DNA of 32,322 nucleotides, taken from positions 1 to 32,322 of the IMG/VR virus record IMGVR_UViG_3300023116_000194; one strand, given 5' to 3'. Positions within the stretch are counted from its first letter, which is position 1. Each line of letters begins with the position of its first letter. The notes below the pieces were generated by a model that searched no databases, was not told where the DNA came from, and was given only the letters and a program-made list of their open reading frames with translations. Of the stretch, positions 7,965-32,104 are shown in pieces. This stretch comes from a virus. The translations under genes were made by a program, and so were the position numbers.

Positions 7965-7989
7965 GGGGCACTTCGGTGCCCCTTTTTTT
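7965..7989 (+). terminator. Rho-independent terminator after gp23
   Basis: A perfect 7-bp stem, GGGGCAC (7965-7971) with GTGCCCC (7976-7982), closed by a stable UUCG tetraloop (7972-7975) and followed by seven T residues. It lies 27 nt after the gp23 stop and 3 nt before the next late promoter, so it separates capsid transcription from the following unit. It is the only textbook terminator I see in the window. Confidence 0.95.
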
Positions 7990-8546: not shown

Positions 8547-8990
8547 ATGAATCTAGAAGATATTCTTAAAGAATGGCAACAAGATTGCCGCATAGACCCT
8601 ACTAACATTGACGAAGCTTCTCGTTTAACTCCAGAGTTACACGCAAAATATTTGTCTATGTTATCACAATCAAAGTTAAAACTCAAGCAAGCAGAGTTTA
8701 AACAGAAAGAACTCATGAAACTTAAGTGGTTGTGGTACAACGGGAAAATGTCACAAGAAGAAATTGAAGAGTTAGGTTGGGATCCCGATCCGTTTGATGG
8801 TTTGAAAATATTAAAGGGTGAGATGGAACACTATATTGAGGCAGACCCTGAGTTAGTTCAAAGCGAAGCTAAAATCCAGCTTATTAAAACGACTATAGAT
8901 ACTCTTAAAGAAATCGTCGAAAATATAAAGTGGAGGCATCAAACTATTAGCAACATTATACGTTGGAAGCAGTTTGAAGCAGGATTTTAA
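8547..8990 (+). CDS. uvsY: Recombination mediator UvsY
   Basis: 147 residues (T4 UvsY is 137). UvsY loads the UvsX recombinase onto gp32-coated single-stranded DNA. The N-terminus MNLEDILKEWQQDCRID matches the T4 start MRLEDLQEELKKDVFID in pattern. Next come a Lys-rich helical region (about 42-60) and a C-terminal helix ending in RWKQFEAGF, comparable with the T4 RAFEAGK end. The protein is highly helical and charged with no catalytic motif, as expected. It follows a sigma70-type promoter and overlaps uvsW by one base (TAATG), so the two are co-translated. Confidence 0.93.
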   Translation: MNLEDILKEWQQDCRIDPTNIDEASRLTPELHAKYLSMLSQSKLKLKQAEFKQKELMKLKWLWYNGKMSQEEIEELGWDPDPFDGLKILKGEMEHYIEADPELVQSEAKIQLIKTTIDTLKEIVENIKWRHQTISNIIRWKQFEAGF

Positions 8991-10465
8991 TGAATGAAAT
9001 AACGCTCAAAATGAAAGATCATTCTTTTCTTCGGTTGCTCGAATGTGAAAATCACATCGCAACTGAATTGAGCGAACACTTTACTTTTGAAGTTCCTGGC
9101 GCTAAGTATATGCCAGCCGTTAAAAACAGAGTTTGGGACGGCAAAATTCGTATGCTCAATCGTACGAACGGCGAGATTAACGTCGGTCTCTTTCCAGAAA
9201 TTAATCGGTTTGCCCTGTCCAAAGGGTATCGTGTTGTAGTTGAAGATGGACATTTTGGTTTGCCGTTTGAGCAGAACAAAATTGAACACATCAAAACACT
9301 CGACTGGATTAAAACGTTAAACCTTCCCTTTGAGATTCGCGATTATCAGTACGATGCTTTTTGTCACGCAGTGCAACACAAACGATGTGTGTTATTATCT
9401 CCAACTGGCAGTGGAAAGTCGCTTATAATCTACACGCTGATGCGTTGGTACTTAGAGAATCGCAAAGAAAAAATTCTTTTAATTGTTCCCACAACCTCTC
9501 TTGTCGAGCAGATGTATAAAGACTTTCAAGAATATGGTTTTGATGTTGAAACTAATTGCCATCGAATATACAGCGGAAAAGATAAAGACTCCGACAAACC
9601 AGTGATCATCACCACGTGGCAATCCATATACAAACTTGGTCCTAAATGGTTTGAAAAGTTTGGATGCATTTTTGGTGATGAGGTTCATGGATTTAAATCT
9701 AAATCTTTATCTTCTATTATGAACAAGTCGATTTATGCAGAGTATCGTTTCGGAACTACGGGAACTCTAGACGGAACACAAGTAAATAAAATGGTGTTGG
9801 AGGGTTTGTTTGGTCCAGTGCATCGAGTAACAACGACGGCTAAGCTGCAAGAAAAAGCAGAATTAGCTAAGCTAAATATAGACATCATCCAATTAAAATA
9901 CGATGAGGAAACTTGTGCTCAGTTATCTAACATTCATTATCAAGGAGAAATTGATTTCCTTGTGGGACACGCTCCCCGGAACCGTTTCATTCGTAATTTG
10001 TCTTGCAGTCTTGATGGCAATACACTTGTTCTTTTTAACTTAGTAGAAAAACATGGAAAAGTTTTGCGTGATTTAATTGAGGAAAAAATTGAAAATGGAC
10101 GAAGACTCTTTTACGTGTCAGGAGAAACAAAAACTACAGACAGAGAAGCTATCAGAAAAATTGTGGAACAACAGTCTAATGCTATTGTCCTTGCTTCTCT
10201 TGGTACTTTTTCCACTGGGATTAACATTCGTAATATCCACAATATCGTCTTCGCATCCCCTAGTAAATCCCAAATACGAGTACTCCAATCAATCGGACGT
10301 GGGTTGCGCCTATCGGATGATGGTCGCACAACAAAATTATACGACATCGCAGATGACTTGCGATACAAAGGGAAACCAAACTTCACCCTAAAACATAGCG
10401 CCGAGAGAATTAAAATTTATGAGTCCGAACATTTTCAATTTAAAATATCGGCAATAGACATATGA
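8990..10465 (+). CDS. uvsW: DNA/RNA helicase UvsW
   Basis: 491 residues (T4 UvsW is 503). This superfamily 2 helicase remodels branched DNA and R-loops and helps switch from origin to recombination-dependent replication. Walker A is SPTGSGKS (137-144), the Walker B box is DEVH (230-233), a motif III-like FGTTGTL lies near 255, and the motif VI pattern QSIGRGLRLS is near 435. The N-terminal ~100 residues correspond to the T4 UvsW substrate-binding domain. A GGA-type SD lies before the ATG. The stop overlaps the start of a glycosyltransferase (ATGA), so an accessory gene has been joined to the end of this core operon. Confidence 0.96.
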   Translation: MNEITLKMKDHSFLRLLECENHIATELSEHFTFEVPGAKYMPAVKNRVWDGKIRMLNRTNGEINVGLFPEINRFALSKGYRVVVEDGHFGLPFEQNKIEHIKTLDWIKTLNLPFEIRDYQYDAFCHAVQHKRCVLLSPTGSGKSLIIYTLMRWYLENRKEKILLIVPTTSLVEQMYKDFQEYGFDVETNCHRIYSGKDKDSDKPVIITTWQSIYKLGPKWFEKFGCIFGDEVHGFKSKSLSSIMNKSIYAEYRFGTTGTLDGTQVNKMVLEGLFGPVHRVTTTAKLQEKAELAKLNIDIIQLKYDEETCAQLSNIHYQGEIDFLVGHAPRNRFIRNLSCSLDGNTLVLFNLVEKHGKVLRDLIEEKIENGRRLFYVSGETKTTDREAIRKIVEQQSNAIVLASLGTFSTGINIRNIHNIVFASPSKSQIRVLQSIGRGLRLSDDGRTTKLYDIADDLRYKGKPNFTLKHSAERIKIYESEHFQFKISAIDI

Positions 10466-11211
10466 GAGTTTTAGCTTCTTGCGACTCTAAATATTTTTTG
10501 GCTTTCGGTAGAACGTTTTATACTTCTGCTAAAATGAATGGTTATTCTCCTATAATTAATGTAATTAACCCTACGGAGGAGGCCAAACAATTAGCGAATG
10601 GAATAAAAAATATTTTTTTTACCGAAGAAAAAAATACTAGATATGAATTTTATGCTTCACATAGATTTATTATAGCTCCAAAATACATTAAGAATGGTTT
10701 ATTGATTGTAGATATAGATTCAATTTTTGTAAATTCGATGCAAGAAGATTTTATAGATTACCCCGTTGGTATTTTTAAAAGAACTGGCGGAGTGCCAGCT
10801 GCAGGGCTTGTCTGGTTTAATGGGTCCGAAAATTCTTTATCGTTTGCTAAACGGTTATCGAACAGTTTAAAAACTAAACTAAAAAATCCGCAAGAGTGGG
10901 GCATAGATCAAACTATTTTGAATAGAGTGTTTCAAGAATACAGAAATGAAATTGAAATATATTCTTTCGATGAGAAACATTTTGATCCGTTTAAGTTTAG
11001 TTCTTTGGACACACCTATATGGTCTGGAAAAGGTAAAAGAAAATATATCGATAAAAAATATTTAAATTTATTTAACGAAATTAAAAATAACGCAGAGGAG
11101 TTGTTTGGACCTATAACAAAAACGGAAGAAGACAGCATTGAAGCGACTAAGGATGCTATTAATTGGCATTCACCAAACGCATGGTTGCCTAGGCATATGG
11201 TAAAAAAATGA
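10462..11211 (+). CDS. Putative GT-A-fold glycosyltransferase
   Basis: 249 residues. LIVDIDSIFV (about 81-90) looks like the DxD metal/nucleotide-sugar site (Asp84, Asp86) of GT-A glycosyltransferases. GGVPAAGLVWFN (about 109-120) and WGIDQTILNRVF (about 146-157) fit the acceptor-side and (N/G)xDQ patterns common in such enzymes. No membrane segment or signal peptide is seen, so it would act in the cytoplasm. Codon use is visibly more A/T-rich than uvsW. It overlaps both neighbours by 4 nt and forms a pair with the next glycosyltransferase. The sugar and acceptor (host surface glycan, virion protein or DNA) cannot be told from sequence. Confidence 0.7.
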   Translation: MRVLASCDSKYFLAFGRTFYTSAKMNGYSPIINVINPTEEAKQLANGIKNIFFTEEKNTRYEFYASHRFIIAPKYIKNGLLIVDIDSIFVNSMQEDFIDYPVGIFKRTGGVPAAGLVWFNGSENSLSFAKRLSNSLKTKLKNPQEWGIDQTILNRVFQEYRNEIEIYSFDEKHFDPFKFSSLDTPIWSGKGKRKYIDKKYLNLFNEIKNNAEELFGPITKTEEDSIEATKDAINWHSPNAWLPRHMVKK

Positions 11212-11969
11212 ATTTAGTTTATCAATATTACATTACTGATGAACCTTATCCTTTGTCACTAGAATATTCCTGTCAGTTTGCTGCCGAATACGCAGAAAAA
11301 AATGAAGCCGAATATTTATTTCAAGAAAAATCTTTTTTGCCTGATGAGACTGAAAAATATTGGAAAGATGGATTAGTCTATCATGATATTTGTCGGCTTT
11401 GGAAAGATCCTTTATTTGATAACTATGATTATATTTTATATCTTGATTGTGATGTTATCGCTTTACCCAACGCCTCTAATATTTTTAATTTAAATCCAAA
11501 ACATGTTGCTGGTTGGACAGAAAGAAAACCTAAAAATTCAATCATAACAGGTTTTCATCCATTTGGGTCTGATCATTATAGAGATATTAAAAAATCTTTT
11601 GCTGAGTTTAATGCTCCGTTAATTCAGTCTAAATATAAAGAAGTGTCTACTAGAATATTAAATAGTGGCGTGTTGCTTTGGAGTAAAGAAGCTAGATTAA
11701 TAGCAAGAGAAAAATTTGAAAATTGGAAAAAATGGTATGATCGTCCAGAGTATGAATTTTGGGTAGTTCTAGATCAAATATACCTTAGCGCAATGTTCAA
11801 TAAATATGAATTGGATGTTATGGAACTAGATGATGAATGGAACATAACTCCTTCGTTTTTTGAAACTGGCATTGCTCCGGAATATTCTAATTTTTTACAC
11901 TTTAGTAAACCAGACAATGAAGATTTAGTTCGTTACGTTAAAAAAAATGTTTTAAAAGGTAAAAAATGA
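11208..11969 (+). CDS. Putative glycosyltransferase, GT8-like
   Basis: 253 residues. DYILYLDCDVIALPN (about 74-88) is a good DxD motif (Asp80, Asp82) in the style of GT8 enzymes (glycogenin/LgtC type). NSGVLLWSKEAR (about 149-160) and VLDQIYLSAMF (about 184-194) match the NxG-L and DQ-L--- patterns of that family. No membrane segment is seen. It starts inside the stop of the preceding glycosyltransferase and ends inside the next start (ATGA at both ends), so three accessory genes form one tight cassette between uvsW and gp55. Codon use is A/T-rich like its partner. Substrates are unknown. Confidence 0.75.
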   Translation: MNLVYQYYITDEPYPLSLEYSCQFAAEYAEKNEAEYLFQEKSFLPDETEKYWKDGLVYHDICRLWKDPLFDNYDYILYLDCDVIALPNASNIFNLNPKHVAGWTERKPKNSIITGFHPFGSDHYRDIKKSFAEFNAPLIQSKYKEVSTRILNSGVLLWSKEARLIAREKFENWKKWYDRPEYEFWVVLDQIYLSAMFNKYELDVMELDDEWNITPSFFETGIAPEYSNFLHFSKPDNEDLVRYVKKNVLKGKK

Positions 11970-12433
11970 TGGAACCTAACAAAGACATAATACAGTTCAA
12001 ATTATCTTCTGGTGCCGAAATAGTTTGTGAAGTATTAGAATGGAACGATCAAGAAGATCCTAGTAGTGTTTTGATTGTAAAAAATGCTATGGCAATTATA
12101 TATTGGGATCATTCTAACGGTGAAAGATCATATGTTTTTAGACCTTGGATTTCTTTTCCGGACGAAAAAACTGATTTTGTTATTTTAAATCCGGATCACA
12201 TTTGTTCCATGAATAGACCTGGAAATTACCTTTCTCAACAATACCATGGTACTGTTGAAGAAGTCTTAGAAAACAATCGAAGAAGAGATGAAACATTAAA
12301 AGAAGAACATATAGAAAGTTTAAAAAAGTTTCATAAAATTTTGAAAGGTATAGCTGGAATTGATAATGAAGAAAAGGAAACCCCAAAAAAATCAAACGTA
12401 ATTCAATTTCCAGACCCAGACAAAATTCATTAA
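11966..12433 (+). CDS. Sm-like (LSm-type) phage protein candidate
   Basis: 155 residues. The N-terminal part (about residues 8-40: IIQFKLSSGAEIVCEVLEW, then LIVKNAMAII) has the Sm1 look of a bent five-stranded barrel: a L-x-x-G-x-E-h-x-x-x-h pattern followed by h-h-x-N-A. FVILNPDHICSMNRP (about 71-85) could be the Sm2 strand pair. A charged helix (about 97-127) and an acidic/basic tail follow. Sm-like proteins bind RNA, so a riboregulator role is possible, but this is a fold guess, not a firm family match. It closes the glycosyltransferase cassette, with a 4-nt overlap, and lies upstream of the gp55 promoter. Confidence 0.5.
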   Translation: MMEPNKDIIQFKLSSGAEIVCEVLEWNDQEDPSSVLIVKNAMAIIYWDHSNGERSYVFRPWISFPDEKTDFVILNPDHICSMNRPGNYLSQQYHGTVEEVLENNRRRDETLKEEHIESLKKFHKILKGIAGIDNEEKETPKKSNVIQFPDPDKIH

Positions 12434-12479
12434 TACTATTTCCCCTTACGCGTTAAGCTTTATTTTATAGAAAAGTTTT

Positions 12480-12503
12480 ACTCTTGTCAACCTTGACAGG
12501 AGT
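12480..12503 (+). repeat. 24-bp near-perfect palindrome over the gp55 promoter -35 (operator candidate)
   Basis: Two 11-nt arms, ACTCTTGTCAA (12480-12490) and TTGACAGGAGT (12493-12503), are separated by CC and are reverse complements at 10 of 11 positions. The right arm contains the whole -35 hexamer TTGACA of the gp55 promoter. A dimeric repressor binding here would block polymerase. In RNA read from upstream it could also fold as a 9-bp hairpin with loop AACCUU, but there is no good T-tract after it, so a terminator is less likely. Confidence 0.6.
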
Positions 12504-12520
12504 TTAAATTTCAGTATAAT
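12493..12520 (+). promoter_or_regulatory. Consensus sigma70 promoter for gp55
   Basis: TTGACA (12493-12498) and TATAAT (12515-12520), both exact consensus, are separated by 16 nt. Predicted transcription starts near 12527, giving an 18-nt leader to the ATG at 12545 with no SD. Being an exact consensus, it should be used by host RNA polymerase early in infection unless repressed through the overlapping palindrome. Confidence 0.88.
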
Positions 12521-12544
12521 ATTTTTTATTTTATGGTGTACATT

Positions 12545-13135
12545 ATGTCCGAGATTGCAAAAGCAAAACCACACTACGTCAACAATGCCGACTTCTCATC
12601 TGCTGTTGTAGAATATGTTTCTAAAGCACAAACTGCTAAATCTAATAAAGAATCCAAACCCATGATTCCTAACTACATTGCTGAATGTTTCCTAAAAATT
12701 GCAGAAGGACTTTCGCATAAAGCAAACTTTGTACGCTACACATACAGAGAAGAAATGGTTATGGATGCTGTTGAAAATTGTTTAAAGGCGATTGAAAATT
12801 ATAATCTTGAAGCTGCCACGAGAACAGGCAAACCAAATGCATTTGCATATTTCACACAGATCGCTTGGTATGCTTTCCTTAGACGTATCGAAAAAGAAAA
12901 GAAGCAGCAGGACATCAAGCTTAAGTATCTCAGCGAGTCCGGTATCGAATTACTCGTGGCTGAAGAGATCGACAACAATGAAGCGAGCCGAGAAACTCAA
13001 GCCTTCGTTGAAAGTTTGCGAGAACGTATTGACTTAGTCAAAGAAAATGATAGACTAATTAAAGAGTATTCAAAAACCGAAAGAAAAAAGCGTTCAAGAA
13101 ATGCTGACTCTGATTTATCTAACTTTATGGAATAG
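12545..13135 (+). CDS. 55: Late transcription sigma factor gp55
   Basis: 196 residues from the ATG at 12545; an in-frame ATG at 12533 would add four residues (MVYI). I prefer 12545 because MSEIAKAKPHYVNN lines up with the T4 start MSETKPKYNYVNN. Gp55 is a small divergent sigma70-family factor that directs polymerase to TATAAATA late promoters with clamp gp45. The T4-like core is visible: AECFLKIAEGLSHKANFVRYTYREEM, then DAVENCLKAIENYN and PNAFAYFTQIAWYAFLRRI, the region-2-like helices that bind core and -10 DNA. A charged helical tail follows. No SD is seen. It has its own consensus promoter and palindrome. Confidence 0.95.
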   Translation: MSEIAKAKPHYVNNADFSSAVVEYVSKAQTAKSNKESKPMIPNYIAECFLKIAEGLSHKANFVRYTYREEMVMDAVENCLKAIENYNLEAATRTGKPNAFAYFTQIAWYAFLRRIEKEKKQQDIKLKYLSESGIELLVAEEIDNNEASRETQAFVESLRERIDLVKENDRLIKEYSKTERKKRSRNADSDLSNFME

Positions 13136-13300: not shown

Positions 13301-14365
13301 ATGCAAATAGCAATACTAAATGATACCCATTGTGGTATACGGAACTCTTCTGATATTTTTATGGACTATCAGGAAAGATTTTATCGTGATGTTTTTTTTC
13401 CTTACTTAAAAGATAACGGTATAAAGAAAATCTTGCACCTTGGAGATTATTATGAAAACCGTACTTCGATTAATTTTAGAGCGCTTAATCATAATCGCAG
13501 AATATTTCTTGACGTTCTGCGGGATAATGATATTCATATGGATATTATTCCGGGTAATCATGATGTTTACTACAAAAACACTAACGACTTAAATTCTCTC
13601 AAAGAATTACTTGGACACTATATGTCTGAGGTTAGAATCATTGAGAAGCCAGAAGTGGTAGATTATGACGGCTGTAAAATTGCGCTGATCCCTTGGATTA
13701 ACCCAGAGAATGAAGACAAAACTCGTTATTTTATTAACACCTGTAAAGCGGATATCTGTGGTGCGCATTTAGAATTGCAGGGGTTTGAGATGCAACGTGG
13801 TATTGAGTGTACAGAAGGACAGGACCCGGCTTGGTTCCGTAAATTTGATATGGTTTTCTCTGGTCATTTCCATACCAAAAGTCAACGAGATAATATTCAT
13901 TATTTAGGTAGTCAGATGGAATTCTTCTGGTCAGATTGTCAGGACCGAAAATACTTTCATGTATTTGATACAGATACTCGCGAGTTAACTGCTGTTGAGA
14001 ATCCAATCAAAATTTTTGAGAAAATATATTACGACGATACCCAGAAGAATTCATATGCTGTTCAGAATCTTCAATACCTTGACAACAAATTTGTTAAGTT
14101 AATCGTCGTTAATAAATCTAAACCTATTGAGTTTGAAAAATTTATTGATCGTATCAATCAAAGATCTGTATATGGTTTACAAATAGCAGAAACTTTTCAA
14201 GATTTTGCCGGTGCACAAGTGGATGACGAAAACTTGGCCCTTGACAGCACAGACGATTTACTTTATACTTATATCGATGCTGTGGACACCGATCTTAATA
14301 AAGAACGAATCAAATCAAAGGTTCGTGAACTCATGGTTGAAGCTCAGAATTTAGAAATTTTATGA
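13301..14365 (+). CDS. 47: Recombination endonuclease subunit gp47 (Mre11-like)
   Basis: 354 residues (T4 gp47 is 339). With gp46 it forms the Mre11/Rad50-type nuclease that resects DNA ends and degrades host DNA. Metallophosphoesterase motifs are complete: DTH (Asp8, His10), GD (48-49), GNHD (85-88), His156 in GAHLEL and GHFH (188-191). The C-terminal third (about 240-354) would be the capping and gp46-binding part. No SD is visible before the ATG (GTGAACAA precedes it). It overlaps gp46 by 4 nt (ATGA), as expected for two subunits made in balanced amounts. Confidence 0.97.
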   Translation: MQIAILNDTHCGIRNSSDIFMDYQERFYRDVFFPYLKDNGIKKILHLGDYYENRTSINFRALNHNRRIFLDVLRDNDIHMDIIPGNHDVYYKNTNDLNSLKELLGHYMSEVRIIEKPEVVDYDGCKIALIPWINPENEDKTRYFINTCKADICGAHLELQGFEMQRGIECTEGQDPAWFRKFDMVFSGHFHTKSQRDNIHYLGSQMEFFWSDCQDRKYFHVFDTDTRELTAVENPIKIFEKIYYDDTQKNSYAVQNLQYLDNKFVKLIVVNKSKPIEFEKFIDRINQRSVYGLQIAETFQDFAGAQVDDENLALDSTDDLLYTYIDAVDTDLNKERIKSKVRELMVEAQNLEIL

Positions 14366-16083
14366 TAAAATTTAAACACCTTCGTTATAAAAATTTCCTA
14401 AGCACTGGCGATCATTGGACCGACATTGCTTTGGACGAAACTCCGACTACTTTGATTGTGGGTCAAAATGGTTCTGGCAAATCTACAATGCTTGATGCTT
14501 TGTCGTTCGCGCTTTTTGGTAAAGCACATCGCAGTGTTAATAAACCGCAACTGGTGAACTCAATCAACAACAAAGATTGTCTTGTTGAAGTCTACTTTGA
14601 GGTCGGCGCACAAGCTTACACTATTCGTCGCGGTATCAAACCTACTGTGTTTGAGATATGGTATGGTATGCCAAACACAGGCAGGCTGTTTAATCAGGAC
14701 TCGCATAATAAAGAGTATCAAAAAATACTTGAGCAAAATATTCTTAAGCTCAATCACAAGTCGTTTCATCAGGTCGTTGTGCTGGGGAGTAGCAGTTTTA
14801 TTCCTTTTATGCAACTCCCCGCACAACATCGCCGTGAAGTCATTGAGGACCTATTAGATATTAATGTGTTCTCAAAAATGAACAACCTTCTAAAAGAGAA
14901 GGTATCTTTGCTGAAAGAAACTATCAAGGAGAATGAATACGAACTTGAACTTGTTAAAACTAAGATAGATGCTCAGGAAGAACATATATCTGAATTAGAA
15001 AAAATCTCTGAAACTGCTAAAGATAAACTAGAGTCTGAACTCAAAGAGCAGCAAGCAGAGTTGGCCCGTCTGGAGAAACTCGTTGAAGAGTATACCGATA
15101 CTGGACTTCGAGAAGTAGAGAAGTTGTTGTTTGAAACAAAAAGAAAGATTGACGAACTTGAGAAATATGATTTTCAGTTTGATCAGAAGATTAAAAAGTT
15201 TGACAAGGATGTGAAATTCTATGAGGATAACGACACATGTCCCACCTGTGATCAAGAGATCGCCGCTGATATCAAAAGTAAAAAGTTCAGAGAAACTTTC
15301 GACGCGAAAGGAGAGATCGAAGACGCCAAGCTCACACTCTCCTTCAAAATAGCAAAACACTATGATGAGATGACGTGGAATGAAAACATTTTGTCCGAAG
15401 AAACATCTAAGCTCCAAGATGTCGAAATGCACAGGCGTGACATTAAAAGACTCAAGCGGCAAATACAAGGTTTATGTGATGAATTATCCGCAGGGGGGCA
15501 GGACTTGGATAGTTTGCAAACCGCAAAATCTACGCTTGAGGATCTACGAAGATCTCGTGAGGAGGTCGTGTCGAGGAAACTGGAACTCGCGGAAGAACGG
15601 GAATATAATAACGTTATTACAGAGTTGCTCAAAGACTCCGGAATCAAAACCAAAATCATCAAACAATACTTGCCCGTTATTAACAAACTCACGAATCAAT
15701 ACCTTCAAGTACTCGACTTTTATGTCCACTTCGATTTGGACGAAGGATTCAATGAAACAATCCGATCTCGTCATCGAGATGCCTTCTCCTATTCGTCGTT
15801 CAGCGAAGGCGAGAAGCAACGCATAGACCTCGCCTTGTTATTCACATGGCGTCAGGTTGCGCGAATGAAGAATAGCATTGCAACCAATCTTCTAATTCTA
15901 GATGAAACTTTCGATAGCAGCTTAGATGCTGATGGTATTGATAACCTCACTAAAATTCTAGAGACGCTTGACAAAGATACAAATGTCTTTATAATATCAC
16001 ACAAAGGTGAGGTTCTAGAGAACAAGTTTGATCGTAAACTAGAATTTGTAAAAACTAAAAACTTTTCAAAAATAGCAGCGTAA
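14362..16083 (+). CDS. 46: Recombination endonuclease subunit gp46 (Rad50-like)
   Basis: 573 residues (T4 gp46 is 560). SMC/Rad50-type ATPase partner of gp47. Walker A is GQNGSGKST (34-42), long coiled coils flank a zinc-hook CPTC (Cys293, Cys296), the ABC signature is FSEGEKQR (480-487), and Walker B is LLILDETFDSS with Asp514 and Glu515. A conserved His in IISHKGE follows near 548. All key residues are present, so the enzyme should be active. Ribosomes probably reach it by coupling from gp47 (ATGA overlap). It is followed after 7 nt by the clamp gene. Confidence 0.97.
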   Translation: MIKFKHLRYKNFLSTGDHWTDIALDETPTTLIVGQNGSGKSTMLDALSFALFGKAHRSVNKPQLVNSINNKDCLVEVYFEVGAQAYTIRRGIKPTVFEIWYGMPNTGRLFNQDSHNKEYQKILEQNILKLNHKSFHQVVVLGSSSFIPFMQLPAQHRREVIEDLLDINVFSKMNNLLKEKVSLLKETIKENEYELELVKTKIDAQEEHISELEKISETAKDKLESELKEQQAELARLEKLVEEYTDTGLREVEKLLFETKRKIDELEKYDFQFDQKIKKFDKDVKFYEDNDTCPTCDQEIAADIKSKKFRETFDAKGEIEDAKLTLSFKIAKHYDEMTWNENILSEETSKLQDVEMHRRDIKRLKRQIQGLCDELSAGGQDLDSLQTAKSTLEDLRRSREEVVSRKLELAEEREYNNVITELLKDSGIKTKIIKQYLPVINKLTNQYLQVLDFYVHFDLDEGFNETIRSRHRDAFSYSSFSEGEKQRIDLALLFTWRQVARMKNSIATNLLILDETFDSSLDADGIDNLTKILETLDKDTNVFIISHKGEVLENKFDRKLEFVKTKNFSKIAA

Positions 16084-31320: not shown

Positions 31321-31868
31321 TTAGAAAAGGCGATACACTACCAGAATGTAACTTTCGAACACGTGTGCGGGATGAGTCGATTGAGGGTCCTAACCCCTAT
31401 CGCTGGGAAGATAAGACCACGGAAGATTATTTTAAAGGCAAGCGAGTAGTCCTGTTTGCTCTTCCGGGCGCTTTCACCCCAACGTGTTCAACCTATCAAC
31501 TACCCGGTTACGAGCAAAAGTTTGATGCGTTTGTTAATACCGGTATCGATGCGATCTACTGTATGTCAGTTAATGATGCGTTCGTAATGAATGCTTGGGC
31601 TAAAGACCAGCAACTACAAAACGTGCAGGTTATTCCTGATGGCAGTGGCACCTTCACAAAGAAGATCGGTATGCTAGTAGATAAAGACAATCTTGGATTT
31701 GGGTTTCGTTCATGGCGTTACGCTATGATAGTTGATGATGGTGTAGTAGAAGCATTGTTTCCCGAAGCTTCAATGTCTGACAATCATCCCGAAGATCCTT
31801 ATGAGATTTCATCACCAGAAAATGTTTTGGGATATTGTCTCGCACATCCTAAGAGAGAGGCTGCATAA
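31317..31868 (+). CDS. Peroxiredoxin (Prx5-type)
   Basis: 183 residues. PGAFTPTCS (50-58) is the Prx5-type active-site block with peroxidatic Cys57; Thr54 and Arg134 (in FRSWRYAMIV) complete the usual catalytic set. IDAIYCMSVNDAFVMNAWAK (77-96) is also typical of this family. It reduces peroxides with thiol donors; whether a resolving Cys exists (Cys82 or Cys174) is unclear. A redox-protection role during infection is likely, and such genes are known in some marine phages. SD AGAAGGA sits 9 nt upstream. Confidence 0.92.
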   Translation: MIRKGDTLPECNFRTRVRDESIEGPNPYRWEDKTTEDYFKGKRVVLFALPGAFTPTCSTYQLPGYEQKFDAFVNTGIDAIYCMSVNDAFVMNAWAKDQQLQNVQVIPDGSGTFTKKIGMLVDKDNLGFGFRSWRYAMIVDDGVVEALFPEASMSDNHPEDPYEISSPENVLGYCLAHPKREAA

Positions 31869-32104
31869 TGAAAGGTTTCGTTCAGATGAATTTTCATATC
31901 GAGCCAGAGCTTAAAAAAGAACTGAAACGATATTGCATTGAGCGAGACCTAACTATGCACAATGTTCTCAATGAAGCAATTCGTCAGATCGTAAAACACG
32001 GGAAAACGGATTTTATGACCCGCGAACAAGAGCAACTCGAAATGCAACGACGAGAAGAGAAAGTTGTTAAACGGATCGAAAGTAGTTGGGAGTCCTCATA
32101 CTGA
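31868..32104 (+). CDS. Ribbon-helix-helix type regulator candidate
   Basis: 78 residues. A short N-terminal strand (GFVQMNFHI, 3-11) is followed by two helices (PELKKELKRYCIERDLTMHN and VLNEAIRQIVKHG). This is the ribbon-helix-helix layout of MetJ/Arc/ParG-type DNA-binding dimers, with polar strand residues (Gln6, Asn8, His10) in the DNA-reading positions. A charged helix (TREQEQLEMQRREEKVVKR) extends it. It is the only clear small DNA-binding regulator candidate in the window and so a possible binder of palindromes such as the one at gp55. That link is speculation. It overlaps both neighbours (TAATG and TGATG). Confidence 0.65.
   Translation: MKGFVQMNFHIEPELKKELKRYCIERDLTMHNVLNEAIRQIVKHGKTDFMTREQEQLEMQRREEKVVKRIESSWESSY

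Follow-up and report, generated by a model that had tools for sequence, protein, structure and literature searches.

A palindrome upstream of the late sigma factor gene of a marine T4-like phage marks the meeting point of two predicted outward-facing promoters

Introduction

What does a near-perfect palindrome do over the promoter of a late sigma factor gene? In T4-like phages, gp55 governs the switch to late genes. In Syn9, host-like promoters were reportedly assigned to middle genes by the transcriptome study of Doron and colleagues in 2016. The palindrome considered here was noticed in a first-pass annotation of a marine phage sequence, which read it as the site of a repressor that would time the late programme. 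We analyzed the window, by which we mean the whole stretch of DNA under study (32,322 nt, positions 1-32,322 of the IMG/VR record IMGVR_UViG_3300023116_000194), together with the regions upstream of gp55 in its relatives.

Results

In the window the palindrome reads ACTCTTGTCAA-CC-TTGACAGGAGT (12480-12503), with 10 of 11 arm positions paired and a perfect inner part, TGTCAA-CC-TTGACA. The first-pass annotation was right that a near-perfect 24-bp palindrome lies upstream of gp55, that an exact TTGACA-16-TATAAT promoter stands before this gene (12/12 match at 12493-12520), and that the window has no second copy, the inner palindrome being single in the 32 kb record. The gene is identified as gp55 by its match to PHROG 234, the family of the late sigma factor (E 9e-51). 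Overlooked was a leftward promoter on the opposite strand, TTGACA-17-TAAAAT (12490-12462), here called P_L; the palindrome is common to P_L and the rightward gp55 promoter, P_R. The remaining, left half of the palindrome is the minus-strand -35, and therefore the core at 12485-12498 consists of two back-to-back -35 boxes. Judged from its sequence, the palindrome brings together, at their -35 boxes, two promoters of the sigma70, or host, type that face outward: complete -35/-10 sets are found on opposite strands and point apart, with matches of 12/12 and 11/12. Promoters matching 12/12 at a spacing of 15-19 bp number two in the window, against 0.06 expected. The start of gp55 is more likely the ATG at 12545 than position 12533, because the latter implies a leader of only ~6 nt (Table 1).

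Table 1. Features of the gp55 promoter region and neighboring genes, in window coordinates
Feature	Position	Strand	Remarks
UvsW helicase gene	8990-10465	+	Pfam UvsW_N, E 2.6e-16; farther along the predicted antisense path of P_L
ORF155, cyanophage gp143-like	11966-12433	+	PHROG 527/471; same position in isolates
GGGG in the predicted leftward leader	12442-12445	-	part of the clade A G-rich block
Stem-loop CTTA-ACGCG-TAAG near the P_L start	12445-12457	-	weak and displaced compared with relatives
P_L, predicted leftward promoter	12462-12490	-	-35 12485-12490, -10 12462-12467, 11/12; expected start ~12455
Palindrome of the first-pass annotation	12480-12503		outer arms 12480-12484 and 12499-12503 unconserved
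Palindrome core, two abutting -35 boxes	12485-12498		gap 2 bp, centre-to-centre 8 bp, one-turn class
P_R, predicted rightward gp55 promoter	12493-12520	+	-35 12493-12498, -10 12515-12520, 12/12; expected start ~12527
gp55, late sigma factor	12533-13135	+	PHROG 234
gp47 and gp46 genes, downstream of gp55	13301-16083	+	gp47 by PHROG; gp46 by position and isolate synteny

The genes of the isolates are ordered uvsY-uvsW-ORF('gp143')-promoter pair-gp55-gp47-gp46, at times with extra small genes, and the window is arranged likewise. P_L faces the 3' end of ORF155, which cyanophage records name 'methylamine utilization'. In relatives, the -10 box of P_L mostly lies 25-39 bp past the stop codon of the upstream plus-strand gene. 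P_L has the placement of a cis-antisense promoter, just 3' of a gene and pointing at it; since it sits just past the upstream stop, leftward transcription in the window would be antisense to ORF155, then to two glycosyltransferase-like ORFs, uvsW and uvsY.

The two glycosyltransferase-like ORFs, the second of which matches Glyco_transf_8, occupy 10462-11969 between uvsW and ORF155, and are absent between these genes in the isolates examined. The protein preceding the pair (its end is encoded at 12419-12433 in the window) has a C-terminal His in 81 of 120 cases in clade A and 52 of 53 in clade C, the ending often being T-x-His. Farther upstream, a 470-aa ORF whose position makes it the likely gene of the major capsid protein is followed by a strong rightward intrinsic terminator (7965-7982, GGGGCAC-TTCG-GTGCCCC and then TTTTTTT).

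Six gp55 protein scans of IMG/VR, supplemented by isolates, gave a total of 441 loci with at least 300 nt of upstream sequence, of which 267 were left after dereplication at 85% identity of the upstream region. By query they form three groups: window-like (A, n=153), cyanophage-like (B, n=57) and similar to the Pelagibacter phage Mosig (C, n=57). P_L was scored under strict criteria (at most 200 nt upstream, at least 10/12 matches, at least 5/6 in the -10 box, spacer of 16-18), with dinucleotide shuffles as controls. It was detected in 97/153, 40/57 and 39/57 loci of groups A, B and C, compared with 10.6, 2.0 and 3.8 in the shuffles, which amounts to 176 of the 267 dereplicated relatives versus ~16. 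The corresponding figures for P_R at 10/12 or better are 118/153, 45/57 and 52/57 versus 12, 2 and 5. Both promoters occur together in 76, 29 and 38 loci versus 1.2, 0.2 and 0.4, or in 143 of the 267 relatives versus ~2 under the strict definition. With a looser, gene-anchored definition P_L is found in 230 of 267 relatives, the shuffle control having been run for the strict definition only. The isolates with P_L include C48C1, Mosig, S-RIM44, S-RIM8, Syn9, P-SSM2, S-RSM4 and P-SSM7; in the inspected sequences of P-TIM40 and Cr30 neither the pair nor P_L is apparent before gp55. In Syn9 (NC_008296.2) the predicted starts lie at about 123,698 on the minus strand for P_L and close to 123,752 for gp55. 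Scanning 148 of the 156 kb of C48C1 showed the gp55 pair to be the sole outward pair in which both promoters match at least 10/12 and the gap is at most 70 bp. The predicted promoter pair occurs throughout Kyanoviridae.

Two further arrangements were seen. The Sinorhizobium phages phiM7 (L479) and phiN3 (L474), which do not belong to Kyanoviridae, have a 12/12 leftward promoter upstream of gp55 and a perfect stem-loop, CAGGA-ATG-TCCTG, right behind its -10 box. In L090, from the same record as L055, a second, interlocked pair follows directly after gp55 (12396-12429; P+ 12/12, P- 11/12).

The two -35 boxes are mostly separated by one to six full turns of the helix. In 148 best pairs, the gaps between the boxes cluster at 4, 13.5, 24.5, 35, 45 and 55 bp with near-empty troughs, corresponding to centre-to-centre distances of one to six multiples of ~10.3 bp (period 10.29 bp, bootstrap 95% interval 10.15-10.45). 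A zero-turn class is represented by three loci at -1 when the gene-anchored leftward promoter is held fixed; among isolates, where the centres were determined by hand from the sequence, the distance is about -10 in Syn9 and P-SSM7 and -1 in P-SSM2. The phasing is strongest between the -35 boxes (R = 0.735, compared with 0.683 between the -10 boxes), and no periodicity is seen in the distance from the plus-strand -35 to gp55 (R 0.17), from the stop codon to the minus-strand -35 (R 0.15) or in the length of the whole intergenic region (R 0.10).

The raw Rayleigh p of 1e-33 ignores the relatedness of the loci and is therefore unfit for use. A protein tree of gp55 with 147 rows requires no fewer than 53 changes of turn class. 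Of 73 independent sister pairs, 40 differ in spacing by 4 bp or more, with differences concentrated around 10 and 20 bp (V-test p 3e-6). Coarse thinning by protein clusters leaves 15 values, still with R 0.79 (p 8e-5). The comparison of many independent indels shows that the two predicted -35 boxes are spaced by whole turns, on the same face of the helix. This phasing persists in the zero- and one-turn classes, where the promoters overlap or abut, so that two simultaneously bound polymerases do not explain it. In the four-turn class, A-rich (A/T) tracts lie upstream of both -35 boxes, each on its own coding strand; this fits the use of upstream (UP) elements by both promoters, and is suggestive only.

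P_L is also retained where its partner has been displaced. In 28 dereplicated lineages, at least one gene is inserted just to the right of TGTCAAg and P_L is kept, nearly always at full consensus; as only P_L scoring at least 12 was taken (a 17-bp spacer adds 0.5), these lineages represent retained strong cases and not a rate. The inserted genes start soon after TGTCAAg and almost always lack their own promoter beside P_L. The survival of P_L without an adjoining partner indicates that it is not a by-product of a symmetric -35. Differing genes have been inserted at this one point (e.g. L049, L178, L183 and L429), in a manner resembling an insertion hot spot.

These comparisons bear on the proposal that the palindrome is an operator. 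The outer arms (ACTC/GAGT), which pair at 4 of 5 positions in the window, pair on average at 1.74 of 5 positions in 27 one-turn relatives, versus 1.65 for flanks paired across loci. Outer-arm pairing in the one-turn relatives is thus at chance, and the operator reading fails the test that the first-pass annotation had itself set, namely that the arms should not be poorly conserved while the promoter is kept. The inner arms are conserved because each is a -35 box, and as these boxes lie 10-55 bp apart in most relatives, the palindrome is gone there. No extended operator is conserved around the -35 boxes beyond what sigma70 needs of a -35. The earlier view of the locus survives in part: a conserved element for the control of gp55 is supported, and a palindromic operator is not.

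In a modified form of the repressor idea, a regulator encoded by the phage or the host contacts the two -35 regions from the same side of the DNA, as two half-sites of one operator, and thereby represses or switches gp55 together with P_L. Such a regulator would account for inverted half-sites that lie whole turns apart, even at zero and one turn, where there is no room for two polymerases at once, and helical phasing is typical of proteins that loop DNA or bind cooperatively, GalR among them (PMC4693257). However, the conserved bases are limited to the needs of sigma70 at the -35 box, with the outer arms at chance; the -35 itself drifts among relatives (TTGACA, TTTACA, TGTACA), seemingly along with the other promoters of each phage; and P_L stays at consensus when it has no partner. 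We consider joint control by such a protein unlikely. The protein that the first-pass annotation called a ribbon-helix-helix (RHH) protein (window 31868-32104) matches ribbon-helix-helix models solely below the Pfam cut-offs.

The start region of P_L has a second conserved feature. Directly behind its -10 box, stem-loops with a stem of 4-6 bp and a loop of 3-6 are enriched over shuffles (z 12.8, 13.3 and 9.6 in A, B and C). P_R has no such enrichment over shuffles in A (z -0.5) or B (z 0.8), and in clade C it has a weaker signal (z 4.0) without a preferred start. The centre of the P_L stem-loop lies 7.6-8.5 nt from the -10 box (sd 2-3.6), and its distance from the stop codon varies more widely (sd 7-9); being fixed to the former and loose with respect to the latter, it is tied to the promoter. 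The arms vary and yet pair (AACGG/CCGTT, GGTCT/AGACC, GACT/AGTC, AACAGT/GCTGTT, AGAAG/CTTCT and others), making up 104 distinct stems. A stem-loop with co-varying arms, centred on the expected start, is a conserved feature of the predicted P_L. Mismatches in the minus-strand stems are more often G.T than A.C (19/10, 40/1 and 8/0 in the three groups, those in B deriving partly from one inherited pair), and this preference points to a minus-sense single strand. The expected P_L start lies within the loop, so that the 5' arm would be missing from RNA initiated there. As guesses at its form, the displaced non-template strand may fold into a hairpin, or the 5' end of the RNA may pair with that strand. 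The start-site stem-loop is a strongly conserved part of this sigma70-type promoter, and to our knowledge no role has been assigned to it.

One conceivable role lies in replication, with P_L making the primer RNA of an R-loop origin comparable to T4 oriF and oriG; the stem-loop and a G-rich leader would stabilize the R-loop, and the neighboring UvsW would end it late. In T4, origins require a promoter and an unwinding element, and UvsW unwinds R-loops (PMC3016281). The G-rich block behind the P_L start in clade A, the tying of the stem-loop to the start and the preference for G.T over A.C mismatches on the minus-sense strand would all agree with such an origin. On the other hand, the G block is strong in clade A alone, and neither C48C1, Mosig nor the window shows a switch of GC skew there, skew being a weak proxy that recombination-driven replication may erase. 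We regard an R-loop origin as quite improbable.

The content of the predicted leftward RNA gives no direct sign of its job, as neither an ORF, a terminator, an Rfam family nor synonymous constraint marks it. Specifically, it contains no conserved ORF, the reading frames from the clade A start codon being scattered in length (1-72 codons); intrinsic terminators are not enriched along the 1.5 kb searched; it has no match to an Rfam family; synonymous conservation of the sense gene is not raised opposite to it; and the leader of the window folds ordinarily. This fits, without proving, a situation in which the act of transcription or simple complementarity is what matters. That P_L instead drives a short gene in the leftward direction, or a separate small RNA, is highly unlikely in our view. 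The clade A leaders do contain a Shine-Dalgarno-like block followed by ATG or GTG over the sense stop codon, and the annotation of phiM7 has a 50-aa minus-strand ORF below the leftward promoter, but the ORF of phiN3 is shortened to 18 codons, and the scatter of ORF lengths and the missing terminator, Rfam and synonymous-site signals stand against it. We give almost no credence to the palindrome being a rightward transcription terminator of the upstream genes: a simple scan marks 12480-12503 as terminator-like (10 pairs, 4 of them G-C), but the tail TTTAAATTTC is a poor U run, and the arms lie 10-55 bp apart in most relatives, leaving no conserved terminator hairpin, so that this candidate is contradicted by the comparison of relatives and was rejected.

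Discussion

The comparison of relatives shows two predicted promoters conserved across the family, a P_L that is retained without its partner, -35 boxes that share one side of the DNA, and a stem-loop around the P_L start whose arms co-vary. The best explanation overall, and in our judgment a probable one, is a pair of outward promoters of which P_R serves gp55-47-46 and P_L is antisense to the late-side uvsY-uvsW-ORF155 module at its end.

The following course of events can be proposed. P_R would transcribe gp55-47-46, with P_L running in the opposite direction, antisense to the end of the uvsY-uvsW-ORF155 module. Before gp55 builds up, the host RNA polymerase would fire both leftward and rightward. 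The leftward polymerases and the antisense RNA may curb both the read-through of ORF155, uvsW and the preceding genes and their early expression, and may shield P_R from rightward read-through. Once the polymerase is reprogrammed to late promoters, P_L would shut down along with the rest of the sigma70 promoters, and its block would end. We infer such an antisense brake on the late-side genes until the late switch with some reserve, as plausible but short of probable. In E. coli, an antisense promoter at the end of a gene has a repressive effect proportional to the strength of that promoter (PMC4731013). In T4 a late promoter supplies UvsW, which unwinds the R-loops of origins (PMC3016281), and so an early brake on uvsW would make sense. 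Antisense RNA is known in cyanomyoviruses (CfrI; PMC2984593), and Kyanoviridae are said to show antisense transcription (PMC10976474).

The same-face spacing might couple the two promoters, through a protein or parts of RNA polymerase that touch both -35 boxes, or through shared A/T tracts; this is a tentative idea, and we hold it to be possible rather than probable.

Divergent and antisense promoters as such are already known. The bidirectional promoters described by Warman, Grainger and co-workers (PMC12825309, PMC10268837) likewise direct transcription both ways from sigma70 elements in a short region. In that class, however, the -10 is shared and the starts lie 7-25 bp apart, whereas the gp55 pair consists of two complete predicted promoters back to back at their -35 sides, with starts expected ~72 bp apart in the window and farther apart in relatives, and obeys a helical rule. 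The shared -10 class is distinct from the gp55 pair; as an account of the locus it was rejected on the separate -10 boxes (12462-12467 and 12515-12520) and the distance between the predicted starts.

The synthetic terminator-promoter parts (PMC4731013) similarly place a promoter past the stop codon, facing the gene, and P_L would act as they do, by collision and antisense RNA. Unlike these parts, P_L is natural, conserved across a phage family and linked to the promoter of the gene that follows, and a unidirectional terminator was not seen. CfrI of cyanophage S-PM2 (PMC2984593) is also an antisense RNA of a T4-like cyanophage, as is predicted here, but it lies at psbA, is ~225 nt long and has no tie to gp55. 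T4 oriF and oriG (PMC3016281) share with this locus a promoter beside AT-rich DNA near the uvsY/uvsW genes; the present locus differs in having no skew switch and in its consensus -35, whereas in T4 middle promoters the -30 region contains a MotA site. Phased looping sites such as the GalR operators (PMC4693257) also need to lie on one face of the helix to function, but the phased elements here are two -35 boxes for which no binding protein is known. A literature search of partial coverage, and hence weak evidence of absence, found no description of the gp55 pair, its phasing or its stem-loop.

Taken together, the phased pair and the newly described P_L stem-loop may form a conserved two-way switch that opposes the late-side genes and turns on the late sigma factor in the abundant marine T4-like phages, a proposal we make tentatively and with more doubt than confidence. 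For the timing of the late switch in marine T4-like phages, a predicted antisense promoter found family-wide at gp55 is a concrete place to look, with start sites predicted in several isolates, Syn9 and P-SSM2 among them. Spacing by whole turns amounts to a natural experiment: it bears on the question of whether two promoters, or a protein that lies between them, have to be on one face of the DNA.
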